Positions 13,479 through 29,137 of a DNA stretch of 33,962 nt are shown here, one piece after another (position 1 is the stretch's first letter; each line of letters starts with the position of its first letter). The DNA lies in assembly GCA_009694245.1 (NCBI GenBank), contig SHVO01000014.1, positions 1 to 33,962 on the forward strand, in the 5' to 3' direction. The notes beneath the pieces were generated by a model. It was not told where the DNA came from. It worked only from the letters and a program-made list of their open reading frames with translations, and made no database searches. Source of the stretch: Rhodospirillaceae bacterium (GTDB lineage Bacteria > Pseudomonadota > Alphaproteobacteria > Rhodospirillales > Rhodospirillaceae). A program made the translations under genes and the position numbers.

Positions 13479-13672
13479 GATTCAACGGTGGTCAAGATAC
13501 CCGTAGCCACGCAGCACTAGGCCGCACCCCGCATGAAAGCACAGGTGAGAAATCTGCTCCACCGTAATCGTCCCCTCCGGGAGCGCATTACCTACCCCGC
13601 GCCGAGGGGCGATTCAGCAGCCGCCACTCTGATCGCTGCCGGATGAAAACCGAGTGGCAGGCCAATCGCCCC

Positions 13673-13939
13673 TCATGCGTAATCTGTCGTATTAATCCCC
13701 ACCCTGGCACAGCAACTGATGTCGTCGTCGCCGCCCAGAAGCATCTTGAAGTTCGAGTGACCCGAGGCGCAATCGACCCAATCGAATAGCGGGGGAAGCC
13801 CGCGCAATTCGTGGATGGTGAAGCTATTCGTGGCCGGGTATCCCGCGCGCTTGGTCCTGGCCGCCCGGTTTCTTGGGTCAAAGTCCATGTTGCCCCTGGT
13901 TACGGCATGGTGCTCATCCCGATCCCCCAATCCTCGCAC
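13673..13939 (-). pseudogene. N-terminal fragment of an FkbM-family methyltransferase paralogue
   Basis: The minus-strand frame reads RAARTKRAGYPATNSFTIHE, LRGLPPLFDWVDCASGHSNF, KMLLGGDDDISCCAR and stops at TAA-like end 13673. It lines up with the start of the intact FkbM gene (KRATLPAANDLSADELYALP, YFFGWVECDCGPCKFTMFLG, GGDDAIALRF), but ends before any SAM-binding motif, so it is a truncated paralogue. The frame is open upstream to 14005, where it contains GFPLPGVVGLVR. A related GFPLPDVVRLMR peptide is encoded at 19111-19245. Confidence 0.6.
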
Positions 13940-14042
13940 AAGACCAACGACGCCCGGTAGGGGAAACCCAAGAATTTGGCCCTGGAGTCCTTGCGGACAG
14001 GCGGCTTAAGTTGGCCGGCACAGCAACATAGGCCGAGCGCCG

Positions 14043-14750
14043 ATGAACCGTCCCAATCAAGCCGATGTCGACGCACTCGTCGCTCAATTATCGTCCGGTC
14101 AATTCGAGGCGGCGGTAGCCGCGGCCCGCCGGCTGACCGAAGCGTTTCCCCACATCCCGTTACTTCATCTATTGCTCGCCACGGGGCTGACCCAAGGAGG
14201 TCAATTGGAGCTTGCGGTTCAGACCTATCGCGAGGCCCTCGCCCTCGATCCGGACTATTTTGATGCCTTCTACAATCTTGGCGTTGTGTTTCGCAGGCAA
14301 GGACGGATGTCGGAAGCGATCGAGAGTTATCTCTCCGCCTTAAAACTTCAGCCCCAAAACCTCGATGCCCGCCGGAACCTGGCGAGGATTTACGATGAAT
14401 TCGCGGCGAAGCGCTATCACCAAGTCAGATTGGCCGACGCCGCGGAGTTTTCCGCCAAGGCCCTGGCGCTTGATGGCGAAAACCTCGAATTGCTGGGGAT
14501 CGCCGCGCGCATTGCAAGGGCGCTGGGTCGCGCGGATGGCGAAATCCTAAAACGCATGGTCGCGGCGCCCGTCCGGAATTGGGGTGATGTCACGCGGAGG
14601 ATTTGGGCGGGCTCGATGCTCGGCCGTCCCGAGGAAGTCTATTCATTCCGGATCGACGGGCTCGCGCGTGCCGCCGGCCGCAGGGCATGGGACATTTCTA
14701 CGGGAGCGAAGGCCGCGACGGGAATTCGTGAATGGCTCAAGCCCACTTGA
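14043..14750 (+). CDS. TPR protein related to the TPR-glycosyltransferases, C-terminally shortened
   Basis: This 235-residue protein starts MNRPNQADVDALVAQLSSGQ, the same leader as the two minus-strand TPR-glycosyltransferase genes, followed by TPRs (LLLATGLTQGGQLELAVQTY, AFYNLGVVFRRQGRMSEAIE, ADAAEFSAKALALDGENLEL). From residue ~170 it still aligns with the paralogues (RMVAAPVRNWGDVTRRIWAG, RPEEVYSFRIDGLARAAG), then diverges to a short unrelated tail ending IREWLKPT. The catalytic-looking DxD domain is missing, so it probably lost its transferase part and may be a non-functional or adaptor form. The next gene starts 5 bases after its stop, indicating an operon with the methyltransferase. Confidence 0.65.
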   Translation: MNRPNQADVDALVAQLSSGQFEAAVAAARRLTEAFPHIPLLHLLLATGLTQGGQLELAVQTYREALALDPDYFDAFYNLGVVFRRQGRMSEAIESYLSALKLQPQNLDARRNLARIYDEFAAKRYHQVRLADAAEFSAKALALDGENLELLGIAARIARALGRADGEILKRMVAAPVRNWGDVTRRIWAGSMLGRPEEVYSFRIDGLARAAGRRAWDISTGAKAATGIREWLKPT

Positions 14751-14754
14751 TCTC

Positions 14755-15453
14755 ATGAAGATCTCTTTGACCGATGCCGATCTGGAAAATTTGATTCTCC
14801 AGCGCACCGGCCCATTCATCGATCTGGGCGGCGGCCGGGCCCTCAAGCATTGGTTTCAAACCGGTGAAAAAACGCAGCTCGGCCGGTTTTTGAGCCAGGC
14901 CGGCAAGGTCAACGAATTCATCGAGCGGGTGGTTGCGGGAATCGCCGCGGAATTCGCACAGCTCAGCCCGCATATCCAGAAGGTCGAGGCGAAGTCCGTC
15001 GTCAGCATCGGACCCGGCCTCGGGTTCTTCGAACTCATGACATATAACGTAAATCGCACGCGCCTGTTGCTCGTCGATATCGAGCAATCGGACGAACACC
15101 AACATGGTTTCGCCGAACGGGGCTCGGGCTATTCTCAGCTTTCCACCTGTCGCCGGCTTCTGGTCGCCAATGGCGTCGACCCGGGTCATGTCGAAACCGG
15201 CAATCCCCGGAATCAGCCGCTTCCGCCTGGCGAGTTCTGCGTTCTGGTGAGCCTCATTTCAATGGGCTTTCACTACCCTTGCGATGAATATGCCGACTTC
15301 GTCCTTTCTGGACTTCGCCGCGGCGGCCCGCTAATTTTCGATAAGCGAATCAACAGCCGTGACGGCGGCTGGGAAAAAATCAAACCGCATTCTGATATCG
15401 TTGCGGAAGCGGCCTCGACCAAATCGCGGCGTCTCGTGTTGTCGCGGAAGTAG
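14755..15453 (+). CDS. Class-I SAM-dependent methyltransferase-like protein
   Basis: The product has 232 residues. A glycine-rich SAM-binding-like segment VVSIGPGLGFFELMTYNVNR is followed by RLLLVDIEQSDEHQHGF, where the acidic D-I-E at the end of strand 2 would bind the ribose of SAM; a later strand reads FCVLVSLISMGFHYPCDEYA and the end GGPLIFDKRIN. This order suits a class-I methyltransferase fold, probably acting on sugars or lipids of a surface glycan given the GT61/FkbM neighbours. The exact substrate is unknown. Start ATG 14755 is 4 bases after the previous stop, with GAA-rich weak Shine-Dalgarno; an upstream in-frame extension overlaps the TPR gene and is unlikely. Confidence 0.6.
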   Translation: MKISLTDADLENLILQRTGPFIDLGGGRALKHWFQTGEKTQLGRFLSQAGKVNEFIERVVAGIAAEFAQLSPHIQKVEAKSVVSIGPGLGFFELMTYNVNRTRLLLVDIEQSDEHQHGFAERGSGYSQLSTCRRLLVANGVDPGHVETGNPRNQPLPPGEFCVLVSLISMGFHYPCDEYADFVLSGLRRGGPLIFDKRINSRDGGWEKIKPHSDIVAEAASTKSRRLVLSRK

Positions 15454-15469
15454 GCGGCTATGGCCGAGG

Positions 15470-16591
15470 TCATATCGGAATGGGCGGCCGTTGTTTCTGC
15501 AAGGTCAGTTCGACAGTCTCCCGAAGACGCCCGATATCCACCTCGCTATCGTTGCTAAGCCCGAGCTTCGCGCCGTGATCGGTAACCTCGGCCGGTATGC
15601 GGGTGAACGACTGGCCGATGACCGCGGCAAATCCAAACGAGCCCAAACCGCCGACGAGATGGGAGGGCAGGATTTCGATAATCGCGCAATCATCCGGTGC
15701 AAAATGCGTCATGGCGCTTCCCGAGCCGCCGACGCTGACAATAATTTCCGCCGATCCAACGCTTCGGATCTGTTCGGCCGCGGACTTGTCGGCAAGGTCG
15801 GGGTATTCGAAGCCTTTTGAAGCCAGGAACCGCCAAACCTCGTCTTCGTTGATCAGCTTGCGGTGGCGGGCGTCCTTTCGGCCGAGGAACACCCTCCGAG
15901 GCCCTAAATGTTCGGTGCCTAGGGCCTTCTCGCGCAATTCCCGGCGCAGAGTATGAATCCCATCGTCCCACAATGCGTAATTGAGGCCGTCGGTCGCGGT
16001 GAAATTCGGACAGGAGGCAACCCATACGCGGTCGAACTTTGGCGCGGGATATTGGGGAATCTTCAGAATACGATTCTTTGGCACGCCGAAGAGTTCCAGG
16101 AACGATAACCAAGTGTCCGGGACGCCCTCAAAGACAACGACCGGAAGGCCCTTCAACGCGCCACACCTCTCGAAAGCCACGAGCCGGTATAGAAATTCAA
16201 ATATAAAGTGGCCGAAGAACTTCAATTCGCCGGAAAACCCGCCCAAAAAGCAGCACTCCTGCGTCACGAGCGGGTGAGGAGGGGCGGCATAGCGGATCTC
16301 CCGATTATAATAGTCCAGGAATTCCTGAGGGTGATAGTTCCTGTTGGATTGATTCAAGAAGACCGCGCGGCCCGGCCGGTCCGAGACATAGCTCTTACCG
16401 AAGACGACGACGTCGCGCACCCGCCCGCAGTAGACTTCCGCCGAGCGGAACGGCAGCGTCACGGGCCCCTTAAGCGATTGGAGCAGGCGGTCCTTGGTGT
16501 AGTCGCCCTTCGACAGCCAGGTGAACGGCTGGCCTTGTTCACGGCAAAGCTGCTCAAGGCCGACATTGTAAAGCGGCTGTTCATCGGTCAT
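15470..16591 (-). CDS. GT61-family (DUF563) glycosyltransferase
   Basis: This 373-residue protein has the signatures of the GT61/DUF563 family, which transfers sugars onto glycans: the mid-region GHFIFEFLYRLVAFERCG, the strand/loop RRVFLGRKDARHRKLINEDE, then EVWRFLASKGFEYPDLADKS and the C-terminal AEIIVSVGGSGSAMTHFAPD followed by CAIIEILPS. These correspond to the donor-binding second half of the fold (R-K-D..R...NE, then G..G..L/M.... and E-I-L-P). The length is normal and both ends look intact. It converges with the methyltransferase (16 bases between stops) and lies 62 bases downstream of the FkbM gene, likely co-transcribed. It probably builds a capsule, O-antigen or S-layer glycan. Confidence 0.82.
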   Translation of the reverse strand: MTDEQPLYNVGLEQLCREQGQPFTWLSKGDYTKDRLLQSLKGPVTLPFRSAEVYCGRVRDVVVFGKSYVSDRPGRAVFLNQSNRNYHPQEFLDYYNREIRYAAPPHPLVTQECCFLGGFSGELKFFGHFIFEFLYRLVAFERCGALKGLPVVVFEGVPDTWLSFLELFGVPKNRILKIPQYPAPKFDRVWVASCPNFTATDGLNYALWDDGIHTLRRELREKALGTEHLGPRRVFLGRKDARHRKLINEDEVWRFLASKGFEYPDLADKSAAEQIRSVGSAEIIVSVGGSGSAMTHFAPDDCAIIEILPSHLVGGLGSFGFAAVIGQSFTRIPAEVTDHGAKLGLSNDSEVDIGRLRETVELTLQKQRPPIPI

Positions 16592-16653
16592 AAGATGCCG
16601 CGCAAGAGTCCGGGCCGGGTAAGACTTCCGATGACGGCGGACAAATGCACTTC

Positions 16654-17535
16654 CTAGCCCAATATATCGGCGATCGAGCGACCGCCCGGCAATGCGATCC
16701 GGTTGATCCTGCTGAAAATCGGCTCGCCCGACGGGTGCAGGTGCGGTCTTACGGCCGCGACCGGCGTGATTGTTCCCTGGTCGTCATCCACTTCAAAGAA
16801 CGAATAGCCGTGTTCGGCAAGCTTCTTCTCTACGGCCGCTCCCGCGTGGGCATAGACACATTCAAAAAATATAATCGGGTGGGCGGTTGAAATAATCTCC
16901 GTCATGCCCTCGATGCACTGACCTTCGTAGCCTTCGGTATCGATCTTGACCAAGCCGACCTTGGGCCGGAACGCGGCGGGCAGGTAGCTATCAAGGGTGA
17001 CGACTTGCGTTTGTATGGTGACCATGCCTGAGCGCGCGCCGATGGCGCCGGCCGAACTGAAGCGCAAGGAACCGGCCGGAGCCGAGAACGGCAGCGTTTC
17101 ATTCCTGGCCCCGGCTGCGACCATAAAGAGATTGCCGGTTTGCAGATTATTGAGCCTGAGATTCAGCCCGAGGCGGCTGTAGTTGGCGGGATTGGGCTCG
17201 AAAGCGCCGACCGGCATGCCCGGGTTCGCGAGCATGGCCGCCAGCGTGTAGACCCCGGTATGGGCTCCGATATCCAGCGCCAGATCGACTTTTCTGGCGA
17301 GCGTGGCCCAGGCCTTGAGCGTGGTTTTCTCATAGGAGCCGTTCCAGAAGAACCTGAGAGCGATGGCATCATCGCCGCCCCCGAGAAACATGGTGAACTT
17401 GCAAGGCCCGCAATCGCATTCGACCCAGCCGAAAAAATACGGCAGGGCGTAGAGTTCATCGGCGGAAAGATCATTGGCGGCGGGAAGCGTCGCGCGCTTT
17501 GCCAGAGCCGCCGTGTTCAGTTGATCAATCGCCAC
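16654..17535 (-). CDS. FkbM-family methyltransferase
   Basis: The product has 293 residues starting from GTG 17535, chosen because GGAG lies about 8-9 bases upstream and because sequence before it would overlap the upstream gene. The FkbM methyltransferase domain has VDLALDIGAHTGVYTLAAML (SAM motif I), GAFEPNPANYSRLGLNLRLN (motif II, acidic E), VGLVKIDTEGYEGQCIEGMT (the FkbM KIDTEG signature) and AHPIIFFECVY. FkbM enzymes O-methylate sugars or polyketides. An extra N-terminal segment with paired Cys (VECDCGPCKF) precedes it and is shared with the fragment at 13673-13939. It lies 44 bases after the TPR-glycosyltransferase gene in the same orientation, an obvious glycan-decoration pair. Confidence 0.85.
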   Translation of the reverse strand: MAIDQLNTAALAKRATLPAANDLSADELYALPYFFGWVECDCGPCKFTMFLGGGDDAIALRFFWNGSYEKTTLKAWATLARKVDLALDIGAHTGVYTLAAMLANPGMPVGAFEPNPANYSRLGLNLRLNNLQTGNLFMVAAGARNETLPFSAPAGSLRFSSAGAIGARSGMVTIQTQVVTLDSYLPAAFRPKVGLVKIDTEGYEGQCIEGMTEIISTAHPIIFFECVYAHAGAAVEKKLAEHGYSFFEVDDDQGTITPVAAVRPHLHPSGEPIFSRINRIALPGGRSIADILG

Positions 17536-17579
17536 GAGGGCTTTCTCCGCATTAGAGCAAGCAGCGTGAATACGGTGTT

Positions 17580-19079
17580 CTAAGGCGCGTCCGCCAGTTT
17601 TTGACCGCCCTTGTAGTACCAGATCAGCGCATCGGGGGAATCGTCGGCCTTCCAGTCCATCATACGGGCCGGAGCCGTGGTGACAACGCAGTCCGCGACA
17701 TTTTTTCCAAACCAAATCACAGCCGCGATCATCGCCAGCTGATCGACGAACCACCGTGAGATTCCCAATTCTTCAAAATGAAGGATATAGGAAGCCAGGA
17801 AATCCACAAAGTCCCGGCCGTGGGCCGTGGGCGCGACGGCCAAAAACCCCGCCTTGACTACTTGGTGCGCCATGATTTCGTCGAATGGCCGGTAGATGAC
17901 AGCATCGAATGGACTCGGAAAGGTCAGGCCATCCAGGACATTGCCCTTGAAAATAGCGTCGACGTCCACGGCGATGCAAAGGCGGCCGGCCTGCTTGAGA
18001 AGCTGCGCCAGCCGCACGAACCGCCGCGTCGAGTAAAGGGTCTTGTCGCAAGGCCCAATGTTTTCCGCCGACCAGGTCACACGGTTTTTGGGGAATATAC
18101 GCAAAGCATCCTCGGGTTCGTAACTTCCCGGGTTCATAAGGTGGAGATGGACGTCGCAGCCGGGTGACTTTGACAGCGCCGAGCCGATGAGGTCGCGGGC
18201 GAACCGTTCAGCGTAAACGCCGTCGGCCGCGGCAAAGATCAACGGCCGAGATCCCGTCATGGGAAGCGATCCTTGCAGCACGGGAAGTGAATGAATTTTG
18301 GTTTGAAGGCTAGCGTGTCGGTAGAGGCGGGCGAGATCGGGATAGTCCAGTACGTTCAGGCCCTCGGCGCTAAATCTGAAAGCGTCCTCCGGAAGCCCCG
18401 ATGTGAGCGCGGCCCACATCTGAATCGAGGTCTCCTTCCAGGCCCGGGATGGCGCGGCCATGATCCGCGTGAGGTGGTGCGCGAACGGCCGCCCGCGCGT
18501 TTTTTCCGCAACGGCGGCGTAGGCAAGGTACCTAATATTGTCGGGATCACGTTCAAGGAGGCGGTTTAGGAATGCGATTGCTTCGTCGAACTGCTCAAGC
18601 CTCACCAGGTTTCCGCCGAGGTTGAACAAGACCTCGGGGTTTTCGGGCTTCAAAACCAGCAACTTGCGGAAGGTCTCGACGGCTTCGCGGATACGGTGCT
18701 GCCGCAGATGGGAATATCCAAGCTCGCTGAGGACGATCCGAAGGTTTTGCGCGACGTCGGCATTGGCGGGCTGGAGTTTCAATGCCGCCTGGTAGCAATC
18801 CGCCGCCTCGGCGCGTTTTTGCTGCTTGTGCAACGCAACGCCCAGGTTATTCCAAGCATCGAAAAAATCGGGCTTCAAGGCGAGCGCGGCCCGGTAACTC
18901 TGGATCGCCGCGTCCAACTTGTCTTCGCCCGCCAAGGCCATCCCAAGAACAAGGTGCAGGAGGGGATCTCGCGGGGAGCTATCGATCAGGCCGCGCGCCG
19001 CCACTCCGGCCTTTCCAGGCTGACCGGCATTCAGCAAAGCCACCACAGCCTGAAGTTCCGCCTGGCTCGGAGCACTCAT
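17580..19079 (-). CDS. TPR-fused glycosyltransferase-like protein (intact paralogue)
   Basis: This 499-residue protein starts at ATG 19079 (GGGAGCG upstream). Residues ~1-235 hold four to five TPRs (LVLGMALAGEDKLDAAIQSY, AWNNLGVALHKQQKRAEAAD, VLFNLGGNLVRLEQFDEAIA). Residues ~300-490 form an alpha/beta domain with RPLIFAAADGVYAERFARDL, VHLHLMNPGSYEPEDAL and RLCIAVDVDAIFKGN, where D-V-D resembles the metal-binding DxD of GT-A glycosyltransferases. A transferase role is inferred from this and from neighbours; the exact family is uncertain. The paralogue at 11988-13478 carries a nonsense codon. The FkbM gene follows 44 bases downstream. The TPR leader is shared by three genes in the locus. Confidence 0.7.
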   Translation of the reverse strand: MSAPSQAELQAVVALLNAGQPGKAGVAARGLIDSSPRDPLLHLVLGMALAGEDKLDAAIQSYRAALALKPDFFDAWNNLGVALHKQQKRAEAADCYQAALKLQPANADVAQNLRIVLSELGYSHLRQHRIREAVETFRKLLVLKPENPEVLFNLGGNLVRLEQFDEAIAFLNRLLERDPDNIRYLAYAAVAEKTRGRPFAHHLTRIMAAPSRAWKETSIQMWAALTSGLPEDAFRFSAEGLNVLDYPDLARLYRHASLQTKIHSLPVLQGSLPMTGSRPLIFAAADGVYAERFARDLIGSALSKSPGCDVHLHLMNPGSYEPEDALRIFPKNRVTWSAENIGPCDKTLYSTRRFVRLAQLLKQAGRLCIAVDVDAIFKGNVLDGLTFPSPFDAVIYRPFDEIMAHQVVKAGFLAVAPTAHGRDFVDFLASYILHFEELGISRWFVDQLAMIAAVIWFGKNVADCVVTTAPARMMDWKADDSPDALIWYYKGGQKLADAP

Positions 19080-19567
19080 GATCGCGCTCCCGCGGCGCCC
19101 TGTGCGAAATTTATGTCCATGTCGATGTTGTCGAGGCGGCGGCCCGAGGTTGATCCGATTTCCAGCTTCGCATAAGGCGAACGACGTCCGGTAGCGGAAA
19201 TCCGACCGGCCGCGCTGGGGAGGCAACCCACGCGCCGCTTGACATGAACCGGCGAAATTATAACCACCCCCGTCAAACAGACTTGCTCGCTCCTAAGACG
19301 CCGGGACTCGCCGGCTTATTCCCGCTTTCCCGCCAAATATGGGCCGCGTGCCCAAAATGATCTCGCCCACGGCCCCTCGGGCGCCCGGAATTTCACCGCC
19401 GCCCGGGAATAACCCGGCCGGAGCCAGCGTCTTGGAAGAGATCGGTCGGGTCCCTTCCATCAGCCAAGCGCTTATTACCCAAAGTCTAGACTGGACAACG
19501 GCGCCAAGTAAGGTTTGTAATAGCTGGGCGTTATTGGCGGCGGTTTCATTCAAATCGGAGACTGACG
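19080..19567. other. Intergenic region with a short GFPLP-motif frame
   Basis: Two genes diverge from here, so both promoters should be present; a TATAAT on the minus strand (within 19251-19260) is the best -10 candidate, with no strong -35. A minus-strand frame at 19111-19245 encodes 44 residues (MSSGAWVASPARPVGFPLPD, VVRLMRSWKSDQPRAAA), ending in TAA; its GFPLPDVVRLMR matches GFPLPGVVGLVR upstream of the FkbM fragment at ~13.97 kb. It may be a leader scrap duplicated with the genes. Nothing else is recognisable. Confidence 0.4.
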
Positions 19568-20551
19568 GTGCGCAAATCTTCTCGTATGTTGGTCCTGGGC
19601 GGGATCGCCCTGGTGTCGGTTGGCGTCATTGCCGACACAATTCCGACCGTGCAAATTCCCGACAGCTATTTCCTGGGTCAGGCGCCAAGGTCTCCCGCCA
19701 TCGGTGCCGAAACGGCCAAGACCGCCGCGGCCGTCGAAAAACCCCAGGCGGTGAACGGCGCCCTCTATGCCGTCATCGCCCCCACGTATAACGGCACTGG
19801 TGGAACCAATTCCTACATCCGCCTGTTCAATGGGGGCGCCGCCACCGCAACCTTCAGCGTCACCGTCCAGGGCTCGCCCTCCGGCAATACCTACGGCACG
19901 CGCGGTACGCTGATTCAAGTGCCGACACGGGCCGCGCCGCAATATATTTTATCGTCAATTCTCAGCCTTGCGGGCGCCGGTGCCCTGACCGGCGGCGATG
20001 TCAGTTACTCGCTCTATTTGCAAAGCGTTGAGCCGACGGCCGGGTATCAGCACGTCATCTTCAACGGCGTGAACCGCTTTTTCGAGAACGTGAGTTCGTG
20101 CACCTACCTGCTGAATCAAACAATTCGGTCGGTCGTGAACAGCGTGGTTCTGACCAACGTGCACACCCAGGTTATTGCCGCCTATCCGAGCCAAATCGAG
20201 ATTCATAACTATTTGAACGCCACCACCACCTATACCGCGACGGTGATCGAGGCCGGGACCGGCACGATCAAGGGCCAGTTCAACATCCCGATCGCCGCCA
20301 ATGCCTCTTATGCCATGCCATTCTCGTTCTTTGCGAGCTCGGTGGGTTGGACGCCGGTCGGCGCCGAACAACACGCCAATATCGTGTTGACGAATCCGAA
20401 TGGTGCACTGCCCGCGATCGTGATGGGCCAATCGATCGTCAGTCAGGACTTCCAGGGCGCGTTGATCAGCATGAGCACCGCTTGCGCCGTGAACGCGCCA
20501 GTCGTCGCCGCTACAGGCGGCGGTGATGCGGGCGGCGGCATCACCTACTAA
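19568..20551 (+). CDS. Exported beta-rich protein of unknown function
   Basis: The product has 327 residues from GTG 19568, with GGAG about 7 bases upstream. The N-terminus (MRKSSRMLVLGGIALVSVGV then IADTIP) is a signal peptide. The mature part is rich in Thr, Ser, Asn and beta-strand patterns (SYIRLFNGGAATATFSVTVQ, YLNATTTYTATVIEAGTGTI) and contains two mid-length Ig-like segments; Cys residues are few (SSCTYLL, TACAV), possibly one disulfide. I recognise a recurring proteobacterial 'Y-R-L-F-N-G-G' type of secreted protein but no named family. A cell-surface or S-layer-like role is possible because a glycan locus precedes it, though this is inference. It ends in a Gly-rich tail and is followed by two long inverted repeats. 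Confidence 0.65.
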   Translation: MRKSSRMLVLGGIALVSVGVIADTIPTVQIPDSYFLGQAPRSPAIGAETAKTAAAVEKPQAVNGALYAVIAPTYNGTGGTNSYIRLFNGGAATATFSVTVQGSPSGNTYGTRGTLIQVPTRAAPQYILSSILSLAGAGALTGGDVSYSLYLQSVEPTAGYQHVIFNGVNRFFENVSSCTYLLNQTIRSVVNSVVLTNVHTQVIAAYPSQIEIHNYLNATTTYTATVIEAGTGTIKGQFNIPIAANASYAMPFSFFASSVGWTPVGAEQHANIVLTNPNGALPAIVMGQSIVSQDFQGALISMSTACAVNAPVVAATGGGDAGGGITY

Positions 20552-20555
20552 TCTA

Positions 20556-20626
20556 GTGGTCCGATTCTAACACTCGCATCCCGGTTCGTCGGGCGGTCTT
20601 GCGAGTGTTAGAATCATAAGGACCAC
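20556..20626. repeat. Long imperfect inverted repeat 1
   Basis: The inner arms, GATTCTAACACTCGCA (20563-20578) and its exact complement (20600-20615), are flanked by outer arms GTGGTCC and GGACCAC, with a 4-base bulge (ATAA) on the right. The loop is about 21 bases. It starts five bases after the secreted-protein stop, so it may act as a terminator. The left end reads CTAGTGG. Confidence 0.85.
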
Positions 20627-20642
20627 AAGGGACCTATTGTTT

Positions 20643-20721
20643 CTAGTGTAGCTTTGGATTTGACATTCGCCTCTCAGTCCAGCCGCTAACTCGGGTGCGA
20701 ATGTCAAATCCGCTACACTAG
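20643..20721. repeat. Long imperfect inverted repeat 2, related to the first
   Basis: Outer arms CTAGTGTAGC (20643-20652) and GCTACACTAG (20712-20721) enclose inner arms GGATTTGACATTCGC (20656-20670) and its complement (20697-20711); a TTT bulge sits on the left. The end CTAGTG, arm lengths and GATT..ACA.TCGC core parallel the preceding element 16 bases away, suggesting two members of one repeat family. Confidence 0.85.
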
Positions 20722-20962: not shown

Positions 20963-21922
20963 ATGTTAGCAAGATTTCTGAACGCGGCCGCGCTCGTCGC
21001 GCTGACGCTGGCGATGCTCACCCAGGGGCAGGGCGCGCGCGCGCTTGATTGGACGAAGGTTCCAGGCAAAGACATCACCCTGTTTTACCCGGCGCAAATG
21101 TCGTGGGAGATGCTGCTGACCCAATCGGAACACGGTGGCGCGGAAAAATTCCGCGACGGCAAGAATTGTCGGGGCTGCCATGAGGGCGAGGAGGAATCCT
21201 CGGGCAATCTCCTGGTCGCGGATAAATCGGTCGAGGCCACGCCGATCGCCGGCAAGCCGGGATCGATCAAGCTTAACGTCAAGGCCGCGCACGACGGCGA
21301 GCGCATCTACATTCAGCTGGCGTTCACGCCCGGCGCCCAGCCCGACGCCGGCATGGACAAGGATTTTGCCACCAAGGTCGCGGTGATGCTCGACGACGGC
21401 GGCGTCGCCGAAGCCGGGCGGGCGGGCTGTTGGGCGGCCTGCCACGACAACGCCACCCGCATGCCCAGCGCCGCCGGCAAGGAGACCACCAAGTATCTGG
21501 CACGCTCGCGGGTGAGCTTGACGCGCAAAGGCGGCGAGGAGATCAAGCCGGCCGCCGAAATCGACGCCATGCGCACAGCCGGAGGATTTCTCGAATACTG
21601 GCAGGCGCGGCTCGTCGCCGGCGCCCCGCCGAAAGTCGTCGACGGCACGGTGCTCGAGAAGCGCAGCGATCGCGAGGTGTCGGCGGTAATCGCCGAATCG
21701 GCCGAGAGCAACGGCCTTTGGACGGTGACCTTCAGCCGAAAATTGGATGCCGGCCCCGGCTACAAGCCGATGACCTCCGGCAAGACCTATACCGTCGGTT
21801 TCTCGGTTCATGCCGGCCACGCCGCCCACCGCTTCCACTATGTTTCCTTGGAAAGAACCCTGACCATCGACGCGCCTACACCAGCTTCCGGCAAGCCCGA
21901 CTTCGTCGCAGCCCCGTTCTAG
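20963..21922 (+). CDS. Exported cytochrome c with EB_dh-like haem-binding domain
   Basis: The product has 319 residues with a signal peptide (MLARFLNAAALVALTLAMLT, cleavage near ARA-L). It has a normal haem motif CRGCH (69-73) and an unusual CWAACH (156-161), a CX3CH spacing. The region around it (KLNVKAAHDGERIYIQLAFT, KVAVMLDDGG, CWAACHDNATRMP, then WTVTFSRKLDAGPGYKPMTS and VGFSVHAGHAAHRFHYVSL) matches the ethylbenzene-dehydrogenase/DMSO-reductase-type haem domain used in multihaem c cytochromes of respiratory chains. It is first in an operon with the decaheme cytochrome and outer-membrane barrel and is probably the periplasmic electron partner. The start has GGAGGGG upstream. Axial ligands are not certain from sequence. 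Confidence 0.8.
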   Translation: MLARFLNAAALVALTLAMLTQGQGARALDWTKVPGKDITLFYPAQMSWEMLLTQSEHGGAEKFRDGKNCRGCHEGEEESSGNLLVADKSVEATPIAGKPGSIKLNVKAAHDGERIYIQLAFTPGAQPDAGMDKDFATKVAVMLDDGGVAEAGRAGCWAACHDNATRMPSAAGKETTKYLARSRVSLTRKGGEEIKPAAEIDAMRTAGGFLEYWQARLVAGAPPKVVDGTVLEKRSDREVSAVIAESAESNGLWTVTFSRKLDAGPGYKPMTSGKTYTVGFSVHAGHAAHRFHYVSLERTLTIDAPTPASGKPDFVAAPF

Positions 21923-21940
21923 GTGTTCAGGACGGGCAAC

Positions 21941-22870
21941 ATGCGGCTGATGGTTCGCTTCCTGCCACCCCTGTTGATACCGCTGTTGGCGTCGGCCGCG
22001 ACGGCCGCGGATGCGACTGGAAGGATTCTCGGCGACCCCAAAGCCGTCGAGGCCTGCCTCAATTGTCACGACCAGCCCGCAATCGCCGGCATCTTGCATA
22101 CCGCCCACATGGCCAAAAGCGACAGCCGCACGGGAGTCGAGTCTGAGGGCTGCCAGAACTGTCACGGCGACAGCGCCCGCCATGTCGCCCGCATTCGCGA
22201 TTCGGGCATTCGGCCGCCTCCCGAGCGGGTGTTCAAAGGCCCGCACGCCTCAAAGATCGAGGTGTTGAACGAGACCTGCGCCGGCTGCCATCAAGGCGGT
22301 AGCGCCCTGCACTGGCAGGGCAGTGCCCACGCCGCCGCCGATGTCGCTTGTGTCAGCTGCCATGCGTCGCATCCGGTGCGCGATGCGGTGCTCGCGAAAG
22401 CCACGCAAGCGCCGGTATGTTTCAGCTGCCATGCCGACCGCCGGGCCGACGCCCTCAAGCCATCGCATCATCCGGTGTTGGAAGGGCGCATGGCCTGCGG
22501 CGATTGCCACAACCCCCATGGCTCGGTCGGACCCAAATTGTTGCGCGCGGCCACGGTCAACGACACCTGCCTCAACTGCCACGACGAGAAGCGCGGGCCG
22601 TTCCTATGGGAACACGCGCCGGTGCAGGAAGACTGTACGATTTGCCACACACCTCACGGTTCGGTGCAGGCGACACTTCTAAAGCAGCGCCCGCCCTATC
22701 TTTGCCAGGACTGCCACGACAGTTCACTGCACAACAGCCAGCCCTTCAGCGGCGCCAATCTGCCCGGTGGGGCGCTGCCGGCCCGCCAGTTGGTTTTGCG
22801 CGGCTGTCTCAACTGCCACAGCGCCGTGCACGGCTCGAACCACCCCTCGGGCGCGAGGTTCTCGCGATGA
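21941..22870 (+). CDS. Decaheme c-type cytochrome, MtrA/PioA/DmsE family
   Basis: The product has 309 residues with a signal peptide (MRLMVRFLPPLLIPLLASAA TAA-). I count ten CXXCH motifs in order: CLNCH, CQNCH, CAGCH, CVSCH, CFSCH, CGDCH, CLNCH, CTICH, CQDCH, CLNCH, with the typical distal HTAHMA, HASHP, HHPVLEG, CHNPHG and CHTPHG histidines. Size and haem count match the DmsE/MtrA decaheme family; in Shewanella MtrA and Rhodopseudomonas PioA this protein sits inside the outer-membrane barrel and passes electrons between periplasm and outside. A GTG at 21923 directly follows the previous stop, but ATG 21941 is preferred because AGGA lies 8 bases upstream. Its TGA overlaps the barrel gene's ATG. 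Confidence 0.93.
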   Translation: MRLMVRFLPPLLIPLLASAATAADATGRILGDPKAVEACLNCHDQPAIAGILHTAHMAKSDSRTGVESEGCQNCHGDSARHVARIRDSGIRPPPERVFKGPHASKIEVLNETCAGCHQGGSALHWQGSAHAAADVACVSCHASHPVRDAVLAKATQAPVCFSCHADRRADALKPSHHPVLEGRMACGDCHNPHGSVGPKLLRAATVNDTCLNCHDEKRGPFLWEHAPVQEDCTICHTPHGSVQATLLKQRPPYLCQDCHDSSLHNSQPFSGANLPGGALPARQLVLRGCLNCHSAVHGSNHPSGARFSR

Positions 22871-25146
22871 TCCGCGCCCGGATATGGCGCGCCCTCGCTC
22901 TGCCGACGCTGGTGTTGGCCGGCGCCGCCGGCGCGCAGGAAAGCAGCTTCGAGCTGGGCGCGATCGCGCCGCCGAAGCTGCCACCGCCCCTCTACGTCAG
23001 CGCGATCGAAGCCGGAATCGGTTATCAAAGCCTGGAGTCGTTTCATTTCGGCCGCTACGGCGGTGTGACCGCCGAAGGGCCCTTCGCGATCCTTAAAGGC
23101 GCCATCAGCACCGGCGATGCTTGGAACGCTGAGGGTGGGGATCACGGCGGCAGATTTTGGACCGCGGCCGTCGATCTCAAGGGCTTTGGTACATATGCGC
23201 TGGCCGCGCGCGGCGGCCAACGCGGACGCTGGCGCATGGCTGTGTTCGCCGACGGCTTCACGCGCGCCCTATCCGACAGCGCCGCGACGCCATTCTTTGG
23301 TGCCGGAACCGATCGATTGGTCTTGCCCGGCAACTGGCTCACCGGGGTATCGTCGGCTCGGTTCACCCGGCTCGAACAATCTCTGAAACCCGTGGACTTA
23401 AAGGTCGCCTGGCGCACGGTTGGCGGCGATTTTGTGTTGACGCCCCTTGAAGGTTACGAGGTGCGGCTGCAATTCTCCACGCGCAACCGGCAAGGGATTC
23501 GCCCGCAAAGCTTGGCATTCGGCCAGGAAGGAAATTTTTCGGTGGGCGTATTCTTCCCGCTGCCGGTGGATTACGACACGCACCAGGCGACGCTATCCCT
23601 GGCCTACGCCGATCCGCGCTTGCAGTGGGCCGCATCCTACAATGTATCGGTGTTCACCAGCGTGACCGACGCCGTCATGGTGCCCAACCCTTTTTCCGGG
23701 TCGCTGAGTTCATTGGTCGCAAATCAATGGCCGGCGGGCGCCTTCGCCGGTTTCCCGCTGGGCTTCGGCCAATACGGCCTGCCGCCGGACTCGGCCGCGC
23801 ATCAGTTTCTGGTATCGGGCGGTTACGCGATCTCACCAAAGACGCGCCTTACCCTCAGGCTTTCCTATGCGCTGCAGTCGCAGGACGAGACCTTCCTGCC
23901 CTATACCGCCAATAGCCAGCTTCTCGCGCCGGTTCCCTTGCCGCGCGAGTCCTTGGGCGGCCAGGTCGCAAAGCTTCACTTCGCGCTCAACCTCGCCTCG
24001 CGCGAATGGAAGGACGTCGATCTGTCGATGGGCTACACGCTCGATGACCGGCGCAACCGTTCGCCATCGGACATCTACAGCTATGTCGCCAACGACGTGC
24101 AAGACCAGATCCGGCCGACAATTCCCGGCAATAGCCGTTATATCCGCATAAATCTGCCCCATAGCTTCAGTTTTCACCAAGCCAAGGCCGAAGCCGGTTA
24201 CCAATTGGCGCCGCGCACGCGGCTGAGTCTGTCCTACACCGGCGACTTCCGCTGGCGCGACTATCAGCAAGTCGCGCGCACCGCCGAGCAGGCCTTCAAG
24301 GCTAAAGTACTATCAACCTTCGCCAGCGGGTCGGCGTGGCTCTCGGCCGGTTACGCTTTCCGCGACGGCTCGGATTACGACAGCGCCCTGGCCTGGGACT
24401 TGAGCCACACCGAAGCCTACCTGAACTCCGCGCCCACTAGCCGCTCGATCGAGCAGCCCTTCATGCGCAAGTACAACCTGGCCGACCGCCGCCGAACCGA
24501 AGCTAAGGGCGGCCTCACCTTCGACGCCTCAAGCTCGCTCGCCATCAGCTCGTCCGGCGGGTTCGCCAAGGACAACTACGTCCACTCACCGATCGGTTTG
24601 CGCAGTTCGGAAGCGATGACATTCGATATCGATGCCTCCTACGTCATCGCCAAGGGCGTAACGGCCTCGGCGTTCTACGCCTTGGACAGGATACGATCGT
24701 TTCAAAACGGCTATCTGATTTTCGACACCACCGCCGGCAATCCCGCCCGAAACTGGAGCGTGCGCAACCGTGACACCGTCCATAGCGCCGGGGCGCGGCT
24801 CGGCTTGCAGGTGGTTCCCGAGAAATTCAAGCTCGACGCCGCCTACACGCTCGCCGACGGCACCAGCCGGACCGGCGTACAATCGACGCCGACGCTCATT
24901 TCCAGCGTGTCATCGCCGTTGCCCGCCGCCCGTGACATCACCCATAGCGGCGAGTTCATTGGCGAATACGCCTTGACGCCGGCGGCGGCCGTTCGGCTGG
25001 GCTATACCGTCGCGCGGCACACCAGCCGCGACTGGCAGTATGGCGGTCTCGGCGCCACGCCGGTTGCCCAGATCCTGGGCTCGGGCATCGCGCCGCCGCG
25101 CTACACCGCCCACGTGGTGTGGCTCACGACTCGCCATCAGTTCTGA
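22867..25146 (+). CDS. Outer-membrane beta-barrel, MtrB/PioB family
   Basis: The product has 759 residues with a signal peptide ending near AGA-Q (residue ~22). After a short periplasmic N-terminus it has the family start GIGYQSLESFHFGRYGGVTA EGP and then many alternating-hydrophobicity strands with aromatic girdles through to the C-terminal HVVWLTTRHQF, ending in Phe as outer-membrane proteins do. MtrB/PioB proteins form a ~26-strand barrel that sheathes the decaheme cytochrome. Size is normal (700-850). The N-terminal CxxC of Shewanella MtrB is absent; PioB-type members also lack it. It is translationally coupled (ATGA) to the MtrA-type gene, a classical conduit pair. Confidence 0.9.
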   Translation: MIRARIWRALALPTLVLAGAAGAQESSFELGAIAPPKLPPPLYVSAIEAGIGYQSLESFHFGRYGGVTAEGPFAILKGAISTGDAWNAEGGDHGGRFWTAAVDLKGFGTYALAARGGQRGRWRMAVFADGFTRALSDSAATPFFGAGTDRLVLPGNWLTGVSSARFTRLEQSLKPVDLKVAWRTVGGDFVLTPLEGYEVRLQFSTRNRQGIRPQSLAFGQEGNFSVGVFFPLPVDYDTHQATLSLAYADPRLQWAASYNVSVFTSVTDAVMVPNPFSGSLSSLVANQWPAGAFAGFPLGFGQYGLPPDSAAHQFLVSGGYAISPKTRLTLRLSYALQSQDETFLPYTANSQLLAPVPLPRESLGGQVAKLHFALNLASREWKDVDLSMGYTLDDRRNRSPSDIYSYVANDVQDQIRPTIPGNSRYIRINLPHSFSFHQAKAEAGYQLAPRTRLSLSYTGDFRWRDYQQVARTAEQAFKAKVLSTFASGSAWLSAGYAFRDGSDYDSALAWDLSHTEAYLNSAPTSRSIEQPFMRKYNLADRRRTEAKGGLTFDASSSLAISSSGGFAKDNYVHSPIGLRSSEAMTFDIDASYVIAKGVTASAFYALDRIRSFQNGYLIFDTTAGNPARNWSVRNRDTVHSAGARLGLQVVPEKFKLDAAYTLADGTSRTGVQSTPTLISSVSSPLPAARDITHSGEFIGEYALTPAAAVRLGYTVARHTSRDWQYGGLGATPVAQILGSGIAPPRYTAHVVWLTTRHQF

Positions 25147-25156
25147 GGCGCCGGAA

Positions 25157-26785
25157 TTGTTGCCACCAACGGCCTCGTTCGAGCGCCTGGCATTGAACCG
25201 CATCACCTTCGGCGCCCGCGAGGCCGACATGAAGGATGTCCGCGACCGCGGCTGGGCCGTCTGGGTTGCCGAGCAACTGGCGCCGCCGCCCGGGGACGAG
25301 GAGGCGATCATCGATCGGCTCGCGCGCCAAACCATGCGCATCGCCTACGCCGTCCAGCTTCCGGCCGGCAACAGCCCGGGCTGGCCCGCGGTCGACGAAC
25401 GCCGCCGGTTGAACTACCTGCGGGCGGACATCGCGACGATCTGGGACATGGTCGGCAAGACCGAAATTTCCATCGCCCCCAACGAACGCGCCCGCATCCA
25501 ACAGGAGCTCAACGCCGCCACCTGGGTTCGTAACACCCATGCGCACTATCAGGTCCGCGAGTTCATGGCGGATTTCTGGAGTAATCATTTCAATGTCGGG
25601 CGGCAGGAGGATGTCTACGCCGCGGCGGCGCTGGCGGTTTATGACCTTGAGGTCATCCGTCCGCGCGTCTTCGGGAATTTCCGCGATCTCTTGGAAGAAG
25701 TCGCGAAAAGCGCGGCGATGATGCGCTACCTCAACAATGCCGTGAGCGGCGCGGCCGCGCCCACCGAGAACTATGCCCGCGAACTGCTCGAACTACACAC
25801 CCTAGGGGCTTCGGTTTATCGAGGGCTGAGCGGCGCCGCGCGCGGAGCGGGGGCGGATGTGGTTTCAATCGACGGGCTCGAAGTGGCCTCGGGTTTCACC
25901 GATGCCGATGTCGTCCAGGCAGCGCGGGCGCTGTCGGGTTGGACCATCGAACACGGCCAGCCGGGACCGAGCGCCGCGCTGCCGTTCACCGGCAGGTTTA
26001 TCTACAACCCCCTCCAGCATCACGCCGGGTCGGGGGCATTCATGGGCGTGGATCTTGCGCCGCTGAGGGCGCCCATGGCGCAGGGGCGAAAAATCTTAGA
26101 TATTGTCGCCGCCCATCCGGCCACGGCGGCCTTTGTTTGCGGCAAGCTCTGCCGCCACATCTTCGGCGATTCTCCGCCACCGTCCGTCGTTGAACGGGCG
26201 ATTTTCGCCTGGACCGCCAATCGCCATCGCCCCGATCATATCAAGCGTGTGCTGCTTGCCATTCTGCTGGGTGACGATCAGAGCGGCCGGGACATGGCTG
26301 CCGCCCCCGTCAAACTGCGCCGGCCCCTTGAACGCATGATCGCGCTGTTCCGGTCCACCGATACCAACGTCAATCTGTTCGACCGCGCCGCCGATGCGCT
26401 TGTTTCCCTGGGGGATGGCCTCTACGCCTGGCCGACACCCGAGGGGCGCCCCGACAGCAACGCCGGTTGGCTGTCGGCCGCGGCGGCCTTGAGATTTTGG
26501 AATCTGATGTTCGATGTGATGGATCACCCGGCCTTCACAACAAGCTTCGCCGCGCAGACGCCGAAGGAGGCATTTGCCTCACCGGAGACGGTGATCGAGC
26601 ATTGGGTCGGGCGCATGGTCGGTCATGCGCTGCGGCCCGAGGCCATGAAGGTGTTGATCGAAGACGTGCTCACACCCTTCGGCGTGATGGCGGCTCACCG
26701 TTCGGGCGGCATCGCCAATATCGAAAAGGCGCTGCGGCGCCTGGCCGTTCTCATCGCGACATCGCCCGAATTCGCCCTCAGATAG
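25157..26785 (+). CDS. DUF1800 family protein
   Basis: The product has 542 residues. The family pattern is clear: FERLALNRITFGAREADMKD near the start, then VREFMADFWSNHFNVG, RDLLEEVAKSAAMMRYLNNA, PTENYARELLELHTLG, DVVQAARALSGWTIE, FIYNPLQHHAGSG and KLCRHIFGD. DUF1800 proteins are of unknown biochemical role and usually pair with DUF1501 proteins, as here. The start is probably TTG 25157, since GAGG lies 9 bases upstream and the previous stop is at 25146; a clear signal peptide is not visible, which leaves its location open. It follows the barrel gene by 10 bases, and the DUF1501 gene begins 11 bases after it, so all are one operon. Confidence 0.85.
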   Translation: MLPPTASFERLALNRITFGAREADMKDVRDRGWAVWVAEQLAPPPGDEEAIIDRLARQTMRIAYAVQLPAGNSPGWPAVDERRRLNYLRADIATIWDMVGKTEISIAPNERARIQQELNAATWVRNTHAHYQVREFMADFWSNHFNVGRQEDVYAAAALAVYDLEVIRPRVFGNFRDLLEEVAKSAAMMRYLNNAVSGAAAPTENYARELLELHTLGASVYRGLSGAARGAGADVVSIDGLEVASGFTDADVVQAARALSGWTIEHGQPGPSAALPFTGRFIYNPLQHHAGSGAFMGVDLAPLRAPMAQGRKILDIVAAHPATAAFVCGKLCRHIFGDSPPPSVVERAIFAWTANRHRPDHIKRVLLAILLGDDQSGRDMAAAPVKLRRPLERMIALFRSTDTNVNLFDRAADALVSLGDGLYAWPTPEGRPDSNAGWLSAAAALRFWNLMFDVMDHPAFTTSFAAQTPKEAFASPETVIEHWVGRMVGHALRPEAMKVLIEDVLTPFGVMAAHRSGGIANIEKALRRLAVLIATSPEFALR

Positions 26786-26796
26786 GTCGCCCAGTC

Positions 26797-28089
26797 ATGG
26801 CCCTTTCACGCCGCACGCTTGTCACCACCGGGATCGCCGCCGCCTCGACCGGCGCGATTACGGCCGCGCTGGCACCCGGGGTAAGGGTGGCGCTGAACCG
26901 TGATGCCGCCCGCCCGCCGCGCGATATCCTGGTGGTGGTTTTCCTACGCTTTGGCAGCGACGGCCTCACTCTGGTCGCGCCAGCCGACAACGGCGAATAC
27001 CGCGACAATCGGCCGACGATCGCCGTCAGCTCTTCCGGCGGCAGCGCCGGACTGCATATCGGCGGCCTCGGCGGCGTCGCGTTCTTCCTGCATCCCGAAC
27101 TTACCGATATGAAAGCCCTCTACGAGTCCGGCAATCTCGCCGTTGTCCACGCCGTTGGTTTGCCGACCAACACCCGCAGCCACTTCGAAAGCCAAGACTT
27201 GATGGAGCGCGGCGTTGTCGAGAAGGACAGCCTGCTCAAGACCGGCCCGCTCAAGGGCGGCTGGCTCGCCCGTCACCTTATGACTCGCGATTTGGGACTC
27301 ACCGGCCTTGGCGCCGTGGCCAGCGCCGCCGATGTGCAAACATCCTTGCGCGGTTTTGAGCGCGCCGTAGCCGTGCCCGACGTCACCCAGTTCAATGTCA
27401 TCGGCGGGGATTTGAACCTCAACATCATCGAAGCCTTGAACGCCGGGCCCGAGGCCCATGCGCGAGCGGTGCGCGGCACCGTTGGCATGGTCAAATCGGT
27501 GCGCGAAAGCCTCGCCAAACTCAATGCCGCCTTTACCACGTCTCAAAATTATCCCGCCGGAGAATTCGGCACCGCCATGCGCTCGGTCGCCAACCTGGTC
27601 AAGATGAACACCGGCCTCGAAGTGGCCACCGTCGATTTCGGCGGTTGGGACCACCACTACAATATGAATACTCATTTCCCGGGCCATGCGCGCCAGCTTT
27701 CCCAGACTCTCGGCGCCTTCTGGTCCGACATGGCGCCATACCGCGACCGCCTGACGGTGGTGGCCATGACCGAGTTCGGCCGTCGCCTCGAGGAGAACGC
27801 CGCCGGCGGCACCGACCACGGAGCCGCCTCGGTCATGTTTGTCCTGGGCGGGGCGGTCAGGGGCGGAGAGATCTACGGCCGGTGGCCGGGCTTGCGGCCG
27901 GCCGACTTGCGTGAAGGCGATCTCCGGATCACCACCGACATGCGCCAGGTCCTGCAAGAAATCCTCGCTAAACGTCGGGGTGAGACCGCGCTCGCCGAAA
28001 TATTCCCGGGGCTGGCTTATGAGCCCCTGGGCATCCTCGAGGAACGCCGGGCGGGCGGGCTCAAAAACCTGTTTCGGCGCGGGACTTAG
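26797..28089 (+). CDS. DUF1501 family protein with Tat-like signal
   Basis: The product has 430 residues. The N-terminus MALSRRTLVTTGIAAASTGA carries a twin-arginine-like S-R-R-T-L motif followed by a hydrophobic stretch, so it is probably exported folded by Tat. The DUF1501 domain (alkaline phosphatase/sulfatase-like superfamily) shows ILVVVFLRFGSDGLTLVAPA, FFLHPELTDMKALYESGNLA, LPTNTRSHFESQDLMERG, VDFGGWDHHYNMNTHF, VVAMTEFGRRLEENAAGGTD and HGAASVMFVLGG. Its role is unknown; pairing with DUF1800 is usual, but location in an MtrAB-type operon is not. The His/Asp-rich motifs (GGWDHH, TDHG) suggest metal binding, as an inference. It ends the operon. Confidence 0.85.
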   Translation: MALSRRTLVTTGIAAASTGAITAALAPGVRVALNRDAARPPRDILVVVFLRFGSDGLTLVAPADNGEYRDNRPTIAVSSSGGSAGLHIGGLGGVAFFLHPELTDMKALYESGNLAVVHAVGLPTNTRSHFESQDLMERGVVEKDSLLKTGPLKGGWLARHLMTRDLGLTGLGAVASAADVQTSLRGFERAVAVPDVTQFNVIGGDLNLNIIEALNAGPEAHARAVRGTVGMVKSVRESLAKLNAAFTTSQNYPAGEFGTAMRSVANLVKMNTGLEVATVDFGGWDHHYNMNTHFPGHARQLSQTLGAFWSDMAPYRDRLTVVAMTEFGRRLEENAAGGTDHGAASVMFVLGGAVRGGEIYGRWPGLRPADLREGDLRITTDMRQVLQEILAKRRGETALAEIFPGLAYEPLGILEERRAGGLKNLFRRGT

Positions 28090-28306: not shown

Positions 28307-29137
28307 ATGTTCGGCGGTTTGAATCGAAGCGTCCTGCTCGCCTTGGCCGTACTCGGGGCCTGCGCGATTGCCCGGCCGGTTGCCGCTGCCGATTCCAAGA
28401 GCGAGGCGAAGCGTGAGATCGCGGCGCTTGAGGATTTCTCCACCCTCGATCCCATCCATTTTCCTCTGGGGACGAGTCCGACCAATGCCAAGTTTCAGCT
28501 TAGCTTCAAGTACCGGCTCATCGGGTCGGACAGCCGCGATGATGCATCCGCGCGGAAGTGGCACGAGAGATTCTTCTTCGCGTTTACGCAGACGTCGTTT
28601 TGGGACCTAGCTTCGGAATCGAATCCATTTCGCGATTCCAGCTTCAAGCCGGCCCTGATGTACCAGTTAGACGCGCCGGAGCGGAGTTGGTTTCCCGGTA
28701 ATAATAAGTCTTATGTCCGCGTCGCGTTTCAGCATGAATCAAGCGGCAAGGATCGCGAAAACTCGCGAGGACTGAACATTGTTTATCTTGAGCCGCGCTT
28801 CGATAAGGACCTGGCCGGCGGCTGGGATCTCAGTGTGCGCCCGCGGGTCTGGGCCTATGTTTTTGACGGCAATCAAAAAGACGATTTTCGTAAATACCGC
28901 GGCAATACCGGACTTGCGATCGGCTTAGAAAAGGAAAACGGGATTGGCTTGGTCGCCAACGGCGTGATGAACCCCAATGCCGGCAAAGGAAACCTCAATC
29001 TCGACCTTTCCTACGCCCTGGCGGCCGTTGACTTCCAGCCGTACCTAAACGCCCAACTCTTTACCGGCTAAGGCGAAAGCCTGCTCACCTATAATCTGCG
29101 AGAGACGCCCCTCAGGGCCGGACACGCGCTCACGTGA
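28307..29137 (+). pseudogene. Outer-membrane phospholipase A (PldA-like) with a late in-frame TAA
   Basis: OMPLA hydrolyses phospholipids in the outer leaflet when membrane order is lost. The frame starts at ATG 28307 (GGGGG upstream) with a signal peptide ending near VAA-A. The barrel motifs SFWDLASESNPFRDSSFKPA and RVAFQHESSGKDRENSRGLN are present; H143, S145 and N157 have the same spacing as the E. coli triad H142/S144/N156. Translation stops at TAA 29069-29071 after QLFTG, but the frame continues GESLLTYNLRETPLRAG to TGA 29135-29137, matching the usual OMPLA ending (..G-Y-GESL..YN). The stop therefore replaces a Tyr codon (TAC/TAT to TAA). The shortened product, 254 residues, lacks its last strand and terminal signal and probably cannot assemble. 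Confidence 0.8.

Follow-up and report, generated by a model that had tools for sequence, protein, structure and literature searches.

A lineage-specific porin–cytochrome locus of Rhodospirillaceae with a DUF1800–DUF1501 gene pair directly behind the MtrB barrel

We analyzed a stretch of 33,962 nucleotides from a Rhodospirillaceae bacterium (contig SHVO01000014.1 of assembly GCA_009694245.1; hereafter the window, our contig C46 in a genome of 1.64 Mb and 76.5% completeness). Five genes lie head to tail on its plus strand and encode an EB_dh-family cytochrome, a ten-heme MtrA, an MtrB barrel, a DUF1800 protein and a DUF1501 protein (Table 1). Their successive junctions measure 18, -4, 10 and 11 bp, the 4-bp overlap joining mtrA and mtrB. 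Profile scans with Pfam and NCBIfam, from which all family assignments were made, confirmed the five same-strand genes that a first-pass annotation of the letters had named at these positions. By comparison with relatives, the DUF1800 start was set at about 25157 (a TTG, with ATG at the same place in most relatives), and the ATG at 25040 inside mtrB was ruled out. The conserved block extends upstream to 19568 and includes a sixth gene, here called up327.

Table 1. Members of the conserved block and the repeats within it, in window positions
Feature	Position	Strand	Evidence or remark
up327 (name used here), secreted beta-rich protein, sixth block member	19568-20551	+	outside Pfam and NCBIfam families
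Two perfect inverted repeats, 16-bp and 15-bp arms	20563-20615, 20656-20711		gap between up327 and EB_dh gene
EB_dh-family cytochrome	20963-21922	+	PF09459 128 bits, 7.7e-37; Sec-like signal
Decaheme MtrA/DmsE-type cytochrome	21941-22870	+	Paired_CXXCH_1 125.5 bits; TIGR03508 282.6 bits, cut-off 192.2
MtrB/PioB outer-membrane barrel	22867-25146	+	PF11854 MtrB_PioB 365.5 bits, 7.7e-109; TIGR03509 344.1, cut-off 240.05
DUF1800 protein without signal peptide	25157-26785	+	PF08811 316.6 bits, 4.1e-94
DUF1501 protein, twin-arginine (Tat-like) signal	26797-28089	+	PF07394 95.6 bits, 4.7e-27

The adjacent MtrA and MtrB genes both score above the curated cut-offs of their conduit models, TIGR03508 and TIGR03509, and each of the 23 MtrA proteins inspected, among them four whose loci lack the DUF genes, has ten CXXCH motifs. 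The MtrA profile matches structure chain 6r2q_A at 5.7e-88 (a chain that the structure table labels Cystathionine beta-synthase), and 6R2Q is given as MtrAB of Shewanella baltica in the accessible part of PMC10654088. Judged from these sequence matches, the locus very probably encodes an MtrAB-type outer-membrane electron conduit within a conserved operon. The EB_dh protein carries one CXXCH (C69-H73) and one CX3CH (C156-H161), both invariant in 17 aligned rows and present in 20/20 proteins; the CX3CH by which it was originally described therefore stands, and the CXXCH beside it makes this an EB_dh-family protein with two motifs. Its weak sequence matches include EbdC (2ivf_C, 3e-5) and nitrite oxidoreductase subunit C (7b04_C, 2e-4), and it reaches 28.8 bits against the cut-off of 169.85 for the type II DMSO reductase heme-b subunit model TIGR03477.

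To place the block in its lineage, we searched 99 related genomes with the PF11854 profile and obtained MtrB matches at 27 places in 24 genomes. At 21 of the 27 places, in 20 genomes from four genera of one family, DUF1800 and then DUF1501 follow directly behind MtrB. The genomes comprise 15 of the 19 in the window's genus and five from three other genera (genus codes g3, with three genomes, and g7 and g18, with one each), a recurrence that the first-pass annotation had proposed to look for and that points to a conserved system. The window's genome contributes twice, as a second, diverged block lies on contig C3 (locus L037), with five proteins 57–70% identical to those of the window and an available piece of up327 at 51%. 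The G005 and G035 loci are contig-end pieces that start inside mtrB and lack the upstream genes. The six MtrB places without the pair are in G034 (EB_dh-MtrA-MtrB with no DUF genes), G060, G004:C23, G071 (two places, on short contigs that cannot decide) and G019 (a match below cut-off).

In the 21 loci, the gap from MtrB to DUF1800 is 2–41 bp and that from DUF1800 to DUF1501 is -1 to 73 bp, and MtrB identity to the window falls to 45–50% in nearly complete copies. Gaps this tight over such divergence mean that the arrangement exceeds chance. That the genes merely happen to adjoin in this genome had nothing in its favor beyond the generality of the pair and is ruled out by the recurrence of the block across 20 genomes and four genera; we regard its probability as virtually nil. 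The conduit with DUF1800 and DUF1501 directly behind the barrel, as first proposed, is thus supported by both the curated cut-offs and the 21 loci, and the locus is a lineage-specific, well-conserved variant of a porin–cytochrome locus.

A scan of named genomes with an MtrA alignment, which detected 196 relatives and retained 80 loci, agrees. Where MtrA is at least 62% identical, all six genes are present in 18 of 19 loci, in some of them truncated by a contig end, while the remaining locus, L069, stops inside mtrB at a contig end; most of the 19 are the same assemblies as in the profile search and are not independent counts. Their titles name Rhodospirillaceae, Alphaproteobacteria, Caenispirillum, Candidatus Marinimicrobia and others, and the titles Candidatus Marinimicrobia and Caenispirillum look wrong on several records (L055-L073) of the window's genus or family. 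Two record titles name lakes, Erken and Baikal. We take the RH and TH isolate codes to denote lake samples.

The DUF1800–DUF1501 pair also occurs far outside this lineage. We found DUF1800 in 37/142 class genomes and 105/398 phylum genomes sampled, and at the best-scoring loci DUF1501 adjoins it in 29/30 and 29/29 cases, respectively (L137, returned by both searches, was examined once). The window shows the same module, with the two domains in neighboring genes. Neither MtrA nor MtrB was found beside DUF1800 in the 30 class and 29 phylum loci, in flanks of about 1.5 kb only. Within the family DUF1800 has expanded, with a maximum of nine matches in one genome if weak and split matches are counted, and 40 selected stretches around other family copies contained no EB_dh, MtrA or MtrB. 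In trees of 96 DUF1800 and 86 DUF1501 rows (short rows were dropped beforehand, and the DUF1501 of L031, cut by a contig end, was left out), the conduit-linked proteins fall on one side of a single branch each, with Shimodaira–Hasegawa-like approximate likelihood ratio (SH-aLRT) support, by a quick method, of 100 for the 21 DUF1800 rows and 99 for the 20 DUF1501 rows. With the conduit-linked copies of either protein gathered in one clade within an expansion that spans the family, the simplest reading is that the pair joined the conduit once in this family and was then passed on by descent, as would also apply to the second block in the window's genome.

The AlphaFold2 model of DUF1800 (mean predicted local distance difference test score, pLDDT, 83) is mostly helical and gave no fold match in the PDB (best E 0.33), and sequence searches of solved structures with DUF1800 and DUF1501 returned nothing meaningful. 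Some copies of these genes elsewhere have contexts of their own. In L203 and L208 a run of PPK2, DUF1800, DUF1501 and DUF1800 faces an FTR1 permease that includes a cytochrome c domain. A further DUF1800 of the window's genome, apparently split over the ends of two contigs (L054 on C29 and L053 on C49), faces a frame similar to that iron permease as encoded in L208. The pair in L199 (G020:C7) is apparently decaying, its DUF1800 being interrupted by a stop and its DUF1501 broken into two pieces.

Export signals were called from the best N-terminal 12-residue hydropathy and an expression for the twin-arginine translocation (Tat) motif rather than by a trained predictor. The conduit-linked DUF1800 proteins reach a best 12-mer hydropathy of at most 0.84 and have a signal-like stretch in 0/21 cases, and the medians of the other five block proteins are 1.74–2.38. 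The two arginines are invariant in 17/17 aligned DUF1501 rows (L043, with a stop in its reading, was omitted), and a stricter Tat expression fits 19 of the 20 DUF1501s. By motif and hydropathy, this is the signal pattern of a Tat hitchhiker, with a Tat-like signal on DUF1501 and none on DUF1800. For other DUF1800s, whose starts were read with a crude start finder, a signal-like stretch was seen in 0 of the 35 readable proteins in the family (of 48), 5 of 22 in the class (of 30) and 3 of 17 in the phylum (of 29). Among the unreadable ones, L147, L153, L155, L156 and L162 look signal-bearing, and the 800-aa type was flagged as signal-like in four of six loci. Part of the DUF1800 family would thus be exported on its own signal, and the rest appears nearly always to stand beside a DUF1501 with a Tat-like signal. 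As DUF1501 has such a signal and the linked DUF1800s have none, we propose that DUF1800 is co-exported with DUF1501 through Tat, a route toward which we lean.

Among possible partners in electron transfer, OmcA/MtrC (TIGR03507) was found above the curated cut-off in none of the 19 genus genomes, some of them incomplete, and the two weak matches included MtrA itself; a strict MtrCAB set, with an outer MtrC or OmcA, is therefore not seen there. CXXCH is absent from all 21 linked DUF1800s and all 20 linked DUF1501s. The sister locus L074 (7349-12237) encodes a NapC/NirT tetraheme cytochrome (by Pfam), EB_dh, MtrA and MtrB in this order with no DUF genes, and L075 (7343-12237) agrees with it in gene length and heme count, Pfam having been run on L074 only. 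Both come from other alphaproteobacterial or related metagenome-assembled genomes, and their run is likely a simpler form of the pathway. This gene order is the reason for placing EB_dh between the quinol side and MtrA, and EB_dh plausibly hands electrons between the inner membrane and MtrA. Carbon fixation, considered as a hint at Fe(II) oxidation, received no support, as RuBisCO was found in 1 of the 19 genus genomes.

A same-strand up327 homolog lies upstream of the EB_dh gene in 18/18 other loci reaching that far (L028-L044 and L046; truncated by contig ends in L029 and L037), at a distance of 146–926 bp over 19 loci. The window's member has no Pfam or NCBIfam match. Most rows begin with a hydrophobic stretch (hydropathy median 2.26, minimum 0.71), and the proteins contain two or three cysteines and no CXXCH. 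The AlphaFold2 model (mean pLDDT 72) has a tandem beta-rich core at about 63–313, for which Foldseek returned the biofilm-scaffold protein RbmA as top match at a low template modeling (TM) score, TM1070 (1nc7, TMt 0.62) and weak immunoglobulin-like matches; a search against the sequences of solved structures gave nothing meaningful. An up327 profile matched 28/59 family genomes, with 2–15 matches each and open frames of up to 1352 aa among the matches listed, and 1/289 genomes in a class search, the window's own. The up327-like proteins are thus a family-restricted, expanded set. In the 41 family genomes outside the genus they occur in 14/14 with DUF1800 versus 2/27 without, uncorrected for kinship. 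At L229:4735-11403, in a genus member, an 815-aa DUF1800, a DUF1501 and a 945-aa up327-like protein stand in one apparent operon. As a companion of every DUF1800–DUF1501 pair, up327 was rejected: among 40 other family loci it is adjacent only in L229 and about 7 kb off in L219.

In the mechanism we propose, the Sec-exported EB_dh cytochrome would link MtrA to the periplasmic or inner-membrane side by relaying electrons, and the ten hemes of MtrA would form a path through the MtrB barrel as far as the cell surface. The DUF1800–DUF1501 pair, a free module elsewhere, would have settled behind the barrel only once in this family. DUF1800 and DUF1501 probably fold and pair in the cytoplasm and exit together via Tat, DUF1800 riding on DUF1501. 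Once in the periplasm, the pair would most likely play an accessory part for the conduit or its neighbor, the secreted up327, in processing, modification or assembly, and not the part of an electron carrier. We hold this accessory role of the periplasmic pair as a whole only tentatively, and a functional link and a merely fixed linkage appear to us about equally likely. A stronger version, in which a DUF1800–DUF1501 hitchhiker complex supplied a dedicated copy that a trans-outer-membrane electron conduit of this lineage came to require for its assembly or maturation, seems rather unlikely; if true, it would be the first assigned role for a widespread pair.

Several observations weigh against this proposal. 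Conduits do without the pair: on the available DNA, short for some contigs, none of the other 61 named loci (MtrA 43–51% identical) carries DUF1800, DUF1501 or up327, and the EB_dh-MtrAB locus of G034 lacks the DUF genes as well. The genus members G007, G012, G017 and G018 (completeness 79, 100, 97 and 89) contain DUF1800 and DUF1501, and no MtrB was found in them; they give no sign of the pair being lost with the conduit, and because of them the tie between the two is not obligate. Since neither needs the other, the coupling may be by position only. Genomes with the block have between one and eight additional DUF1800 matches, a count that includes weak and split ones. The first-pass annotation had named two outcomes that would speak for chance, a pair beside MtrAB in this genome alone and a pair in random contexts elsewhere: the former was not observed, and the latter holds insofar as the pair stands in many other contexts, even in the same genomes and in the four members in which no MtrB was found. 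Distances over 15 loci, which correlate at 0.98 between DUF1800 and DUF1501 and at 0.91 with MtrB and would favor the proposal, are explicable by shared descent too. A CymA of the NapC/NirT family (PF03264) is not seen in the 19 genus genomes, the weak matches in three of them all lying inside MtrA frames. As regards co-export, signal-less DUF1800s without a neighboring DUF1501 on the available DNA exist (L223, L224 and L157, the genomes of the first two encoding DUF1501 elsewhere), and some signal-like DUF1800s, in the class panel and in the 4/6 of the 800-aa type, also adjoin DUF1501; neighborhood and signal are therefore not strictly linked. The hydropathy counts misplace some starts, as in L151, and single rows of up327 (0.71) and MtrA (0.18) overlap the DUF1800 range, probably through misplaced starts.

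Much of this would fit a pair that is a passenger, a self-contained exported module with its own job at the cell surface, such as trimming or modifying a surface polymer or up327-like proteins, of which a copy landed behind mtrB in an ancestor and was retained through inheritance and its use of the conduit promoter, with neither a physical nor a functional link to electron transfer. We consider this a substantial possibility, if somewhat short of an even one. The pair is a fixed module at nearly all class and phylum loci, has expanded in the family in other contexts and is retained in genus members where no MtrB was found; it is linked to chitin synthase in other bacteria according to the accessible part of PMC5122149, up327-like proteins co-occur with DUF1800, with the caveat of kinship given above, and the one distant pair in L229 stands directly beside a large up327-like protein. 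However, the 2–41 bp gaps, the unbroken order over four genera and the two diverged blocks in one genome exceed usual passive linkage, and among the 21 loci none of this MtrB clade lacks the pair. The secreted protein itself could be the true outer partner, a surface or matrix protein tying the conduit to its substrate and served by DUF1501 and DUF1800, as its conserved upstream gene, signal-like start in most rows, few cysteines without CXXCH and predicted beta-rich core with RbmA as top though weak match would allow; its distance from the EB_dh gene, perhaps with a transcript of its own, its many copies in the family, also where no MtrB was found (G012 and G017), and the low TM-scores make this quite improbable. 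The idea of the first-pass annotation that the pair sits on the outer face as terminal partner in place of an MtrC-like cytochrome fits the lack of OmcA/MtrC above cut-off in the 19 genus genomes, with the incompleteness already mentioned, but has to be given up almost entirely: neither protein has a CXXCH, the Tat-like signal on DUF1501 leads to the periplasm, DUF1800 has no signal, and conduits without an outer cytochrome are ordinary, PioAB and MtoAB being described as working in this way in the accessible part of PMC6344600.

DUF1800–DUF1501 is a common pair of Proteobacteria without an assigned function, and its constant position behind MtrB makes extracellular electron transfer available as a measurable readout for probing it, along with a first concrete job to test. 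The loci also document an alphaproteobacterial lineage (Rhodospirillaceae by titles, some from lakes) with MtrAB conduits and make the EB_dh cytochrome a recurring neighbor of MtrA.

Other features of the window are more local. In a search of 267 loci, the exact inverted repeats before the EB_dh gene recurred solely in L166 and L235, both of them copies of this stretch, and the corresponding gap of six relatives lacks the repeat cores; being confined to this window, the repeats were rejected as a conserved control element. Promoter-like and terminator-like sites are no commoner than in shuffles. A possible surface glycosylation cluster occupies window positions 12822-19226, with genes for tetratricopeptide repeat proteins, a family 61 glycosyltransferase and an FkbM methyltransferase; among the stretches retrieved from relatives, homologs occur in L035 or L042 only. 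A phospholipase A1-like gene at 28307-29071 was rejected as a block member, as its only homolog lies in L046, about 4 kb behind DUF1501.

The first-pass annotation was aware of no standard conduit locus with DUF1800 and DUF1501 directly behind the barrel, and we found no literature naming DUF1800 and MtrB together, most subscription papers lying outside the search. The locus shares with MtoAB, PioAB and MtrAB a decaheme MtrA-type protein adjoining an MtrB/PioB barrel, and with MtoAB and PioAB the lack of an outer cytochrome gene in the block. Unlike in these systems, EB_dh stands in front, DUF1800–DUF1501 behind and up327 upstream, and no NapC/CymA was found in the 19 genus genomes; unlike in PioAB, no PioC-like family was found among the seven window proteins scanned. 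The EB_dh-MtrA-MtrB loci of other Alphaproteobacteria (L074, L075, L076, L128 and L045 of G034) have the same gene order but no DUF1800, DUF1501 or up327 on the available DNA, and two differ further by the NapC/NirT tetraheme gene (L074) or a four-heme gene of the same length (L075) in front. The verrucomicrobial clusters of PMC5615132 likewise combine porin and multiheme cytochrome genes in lake bacteria, but they are described there as non-homologous to the Shewanella and Geobacter systems and as having eight heme sites, and DUF1800 is unmentioned in the accessible part of that paper. The Tat hitchhiker PaoABC, as described in the accessible part of PMC4273604, also has one partner with a Tat signal and others without, whereas the pairing and co-export of DUF1800 and DUF1501 are predictions. 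The closest parallel for the pair is given by the DUF1800–DUF1501 operons beside bacterial chitin synthases (PMC5122149, which in its accessible part gives DUF1800 no function), where the same two families are adjacent and DUF1501 bears a twin-arginine motif; there the pair accompanies a chitin synthase and a sugar epimerase, and here it accompanies a conduit.

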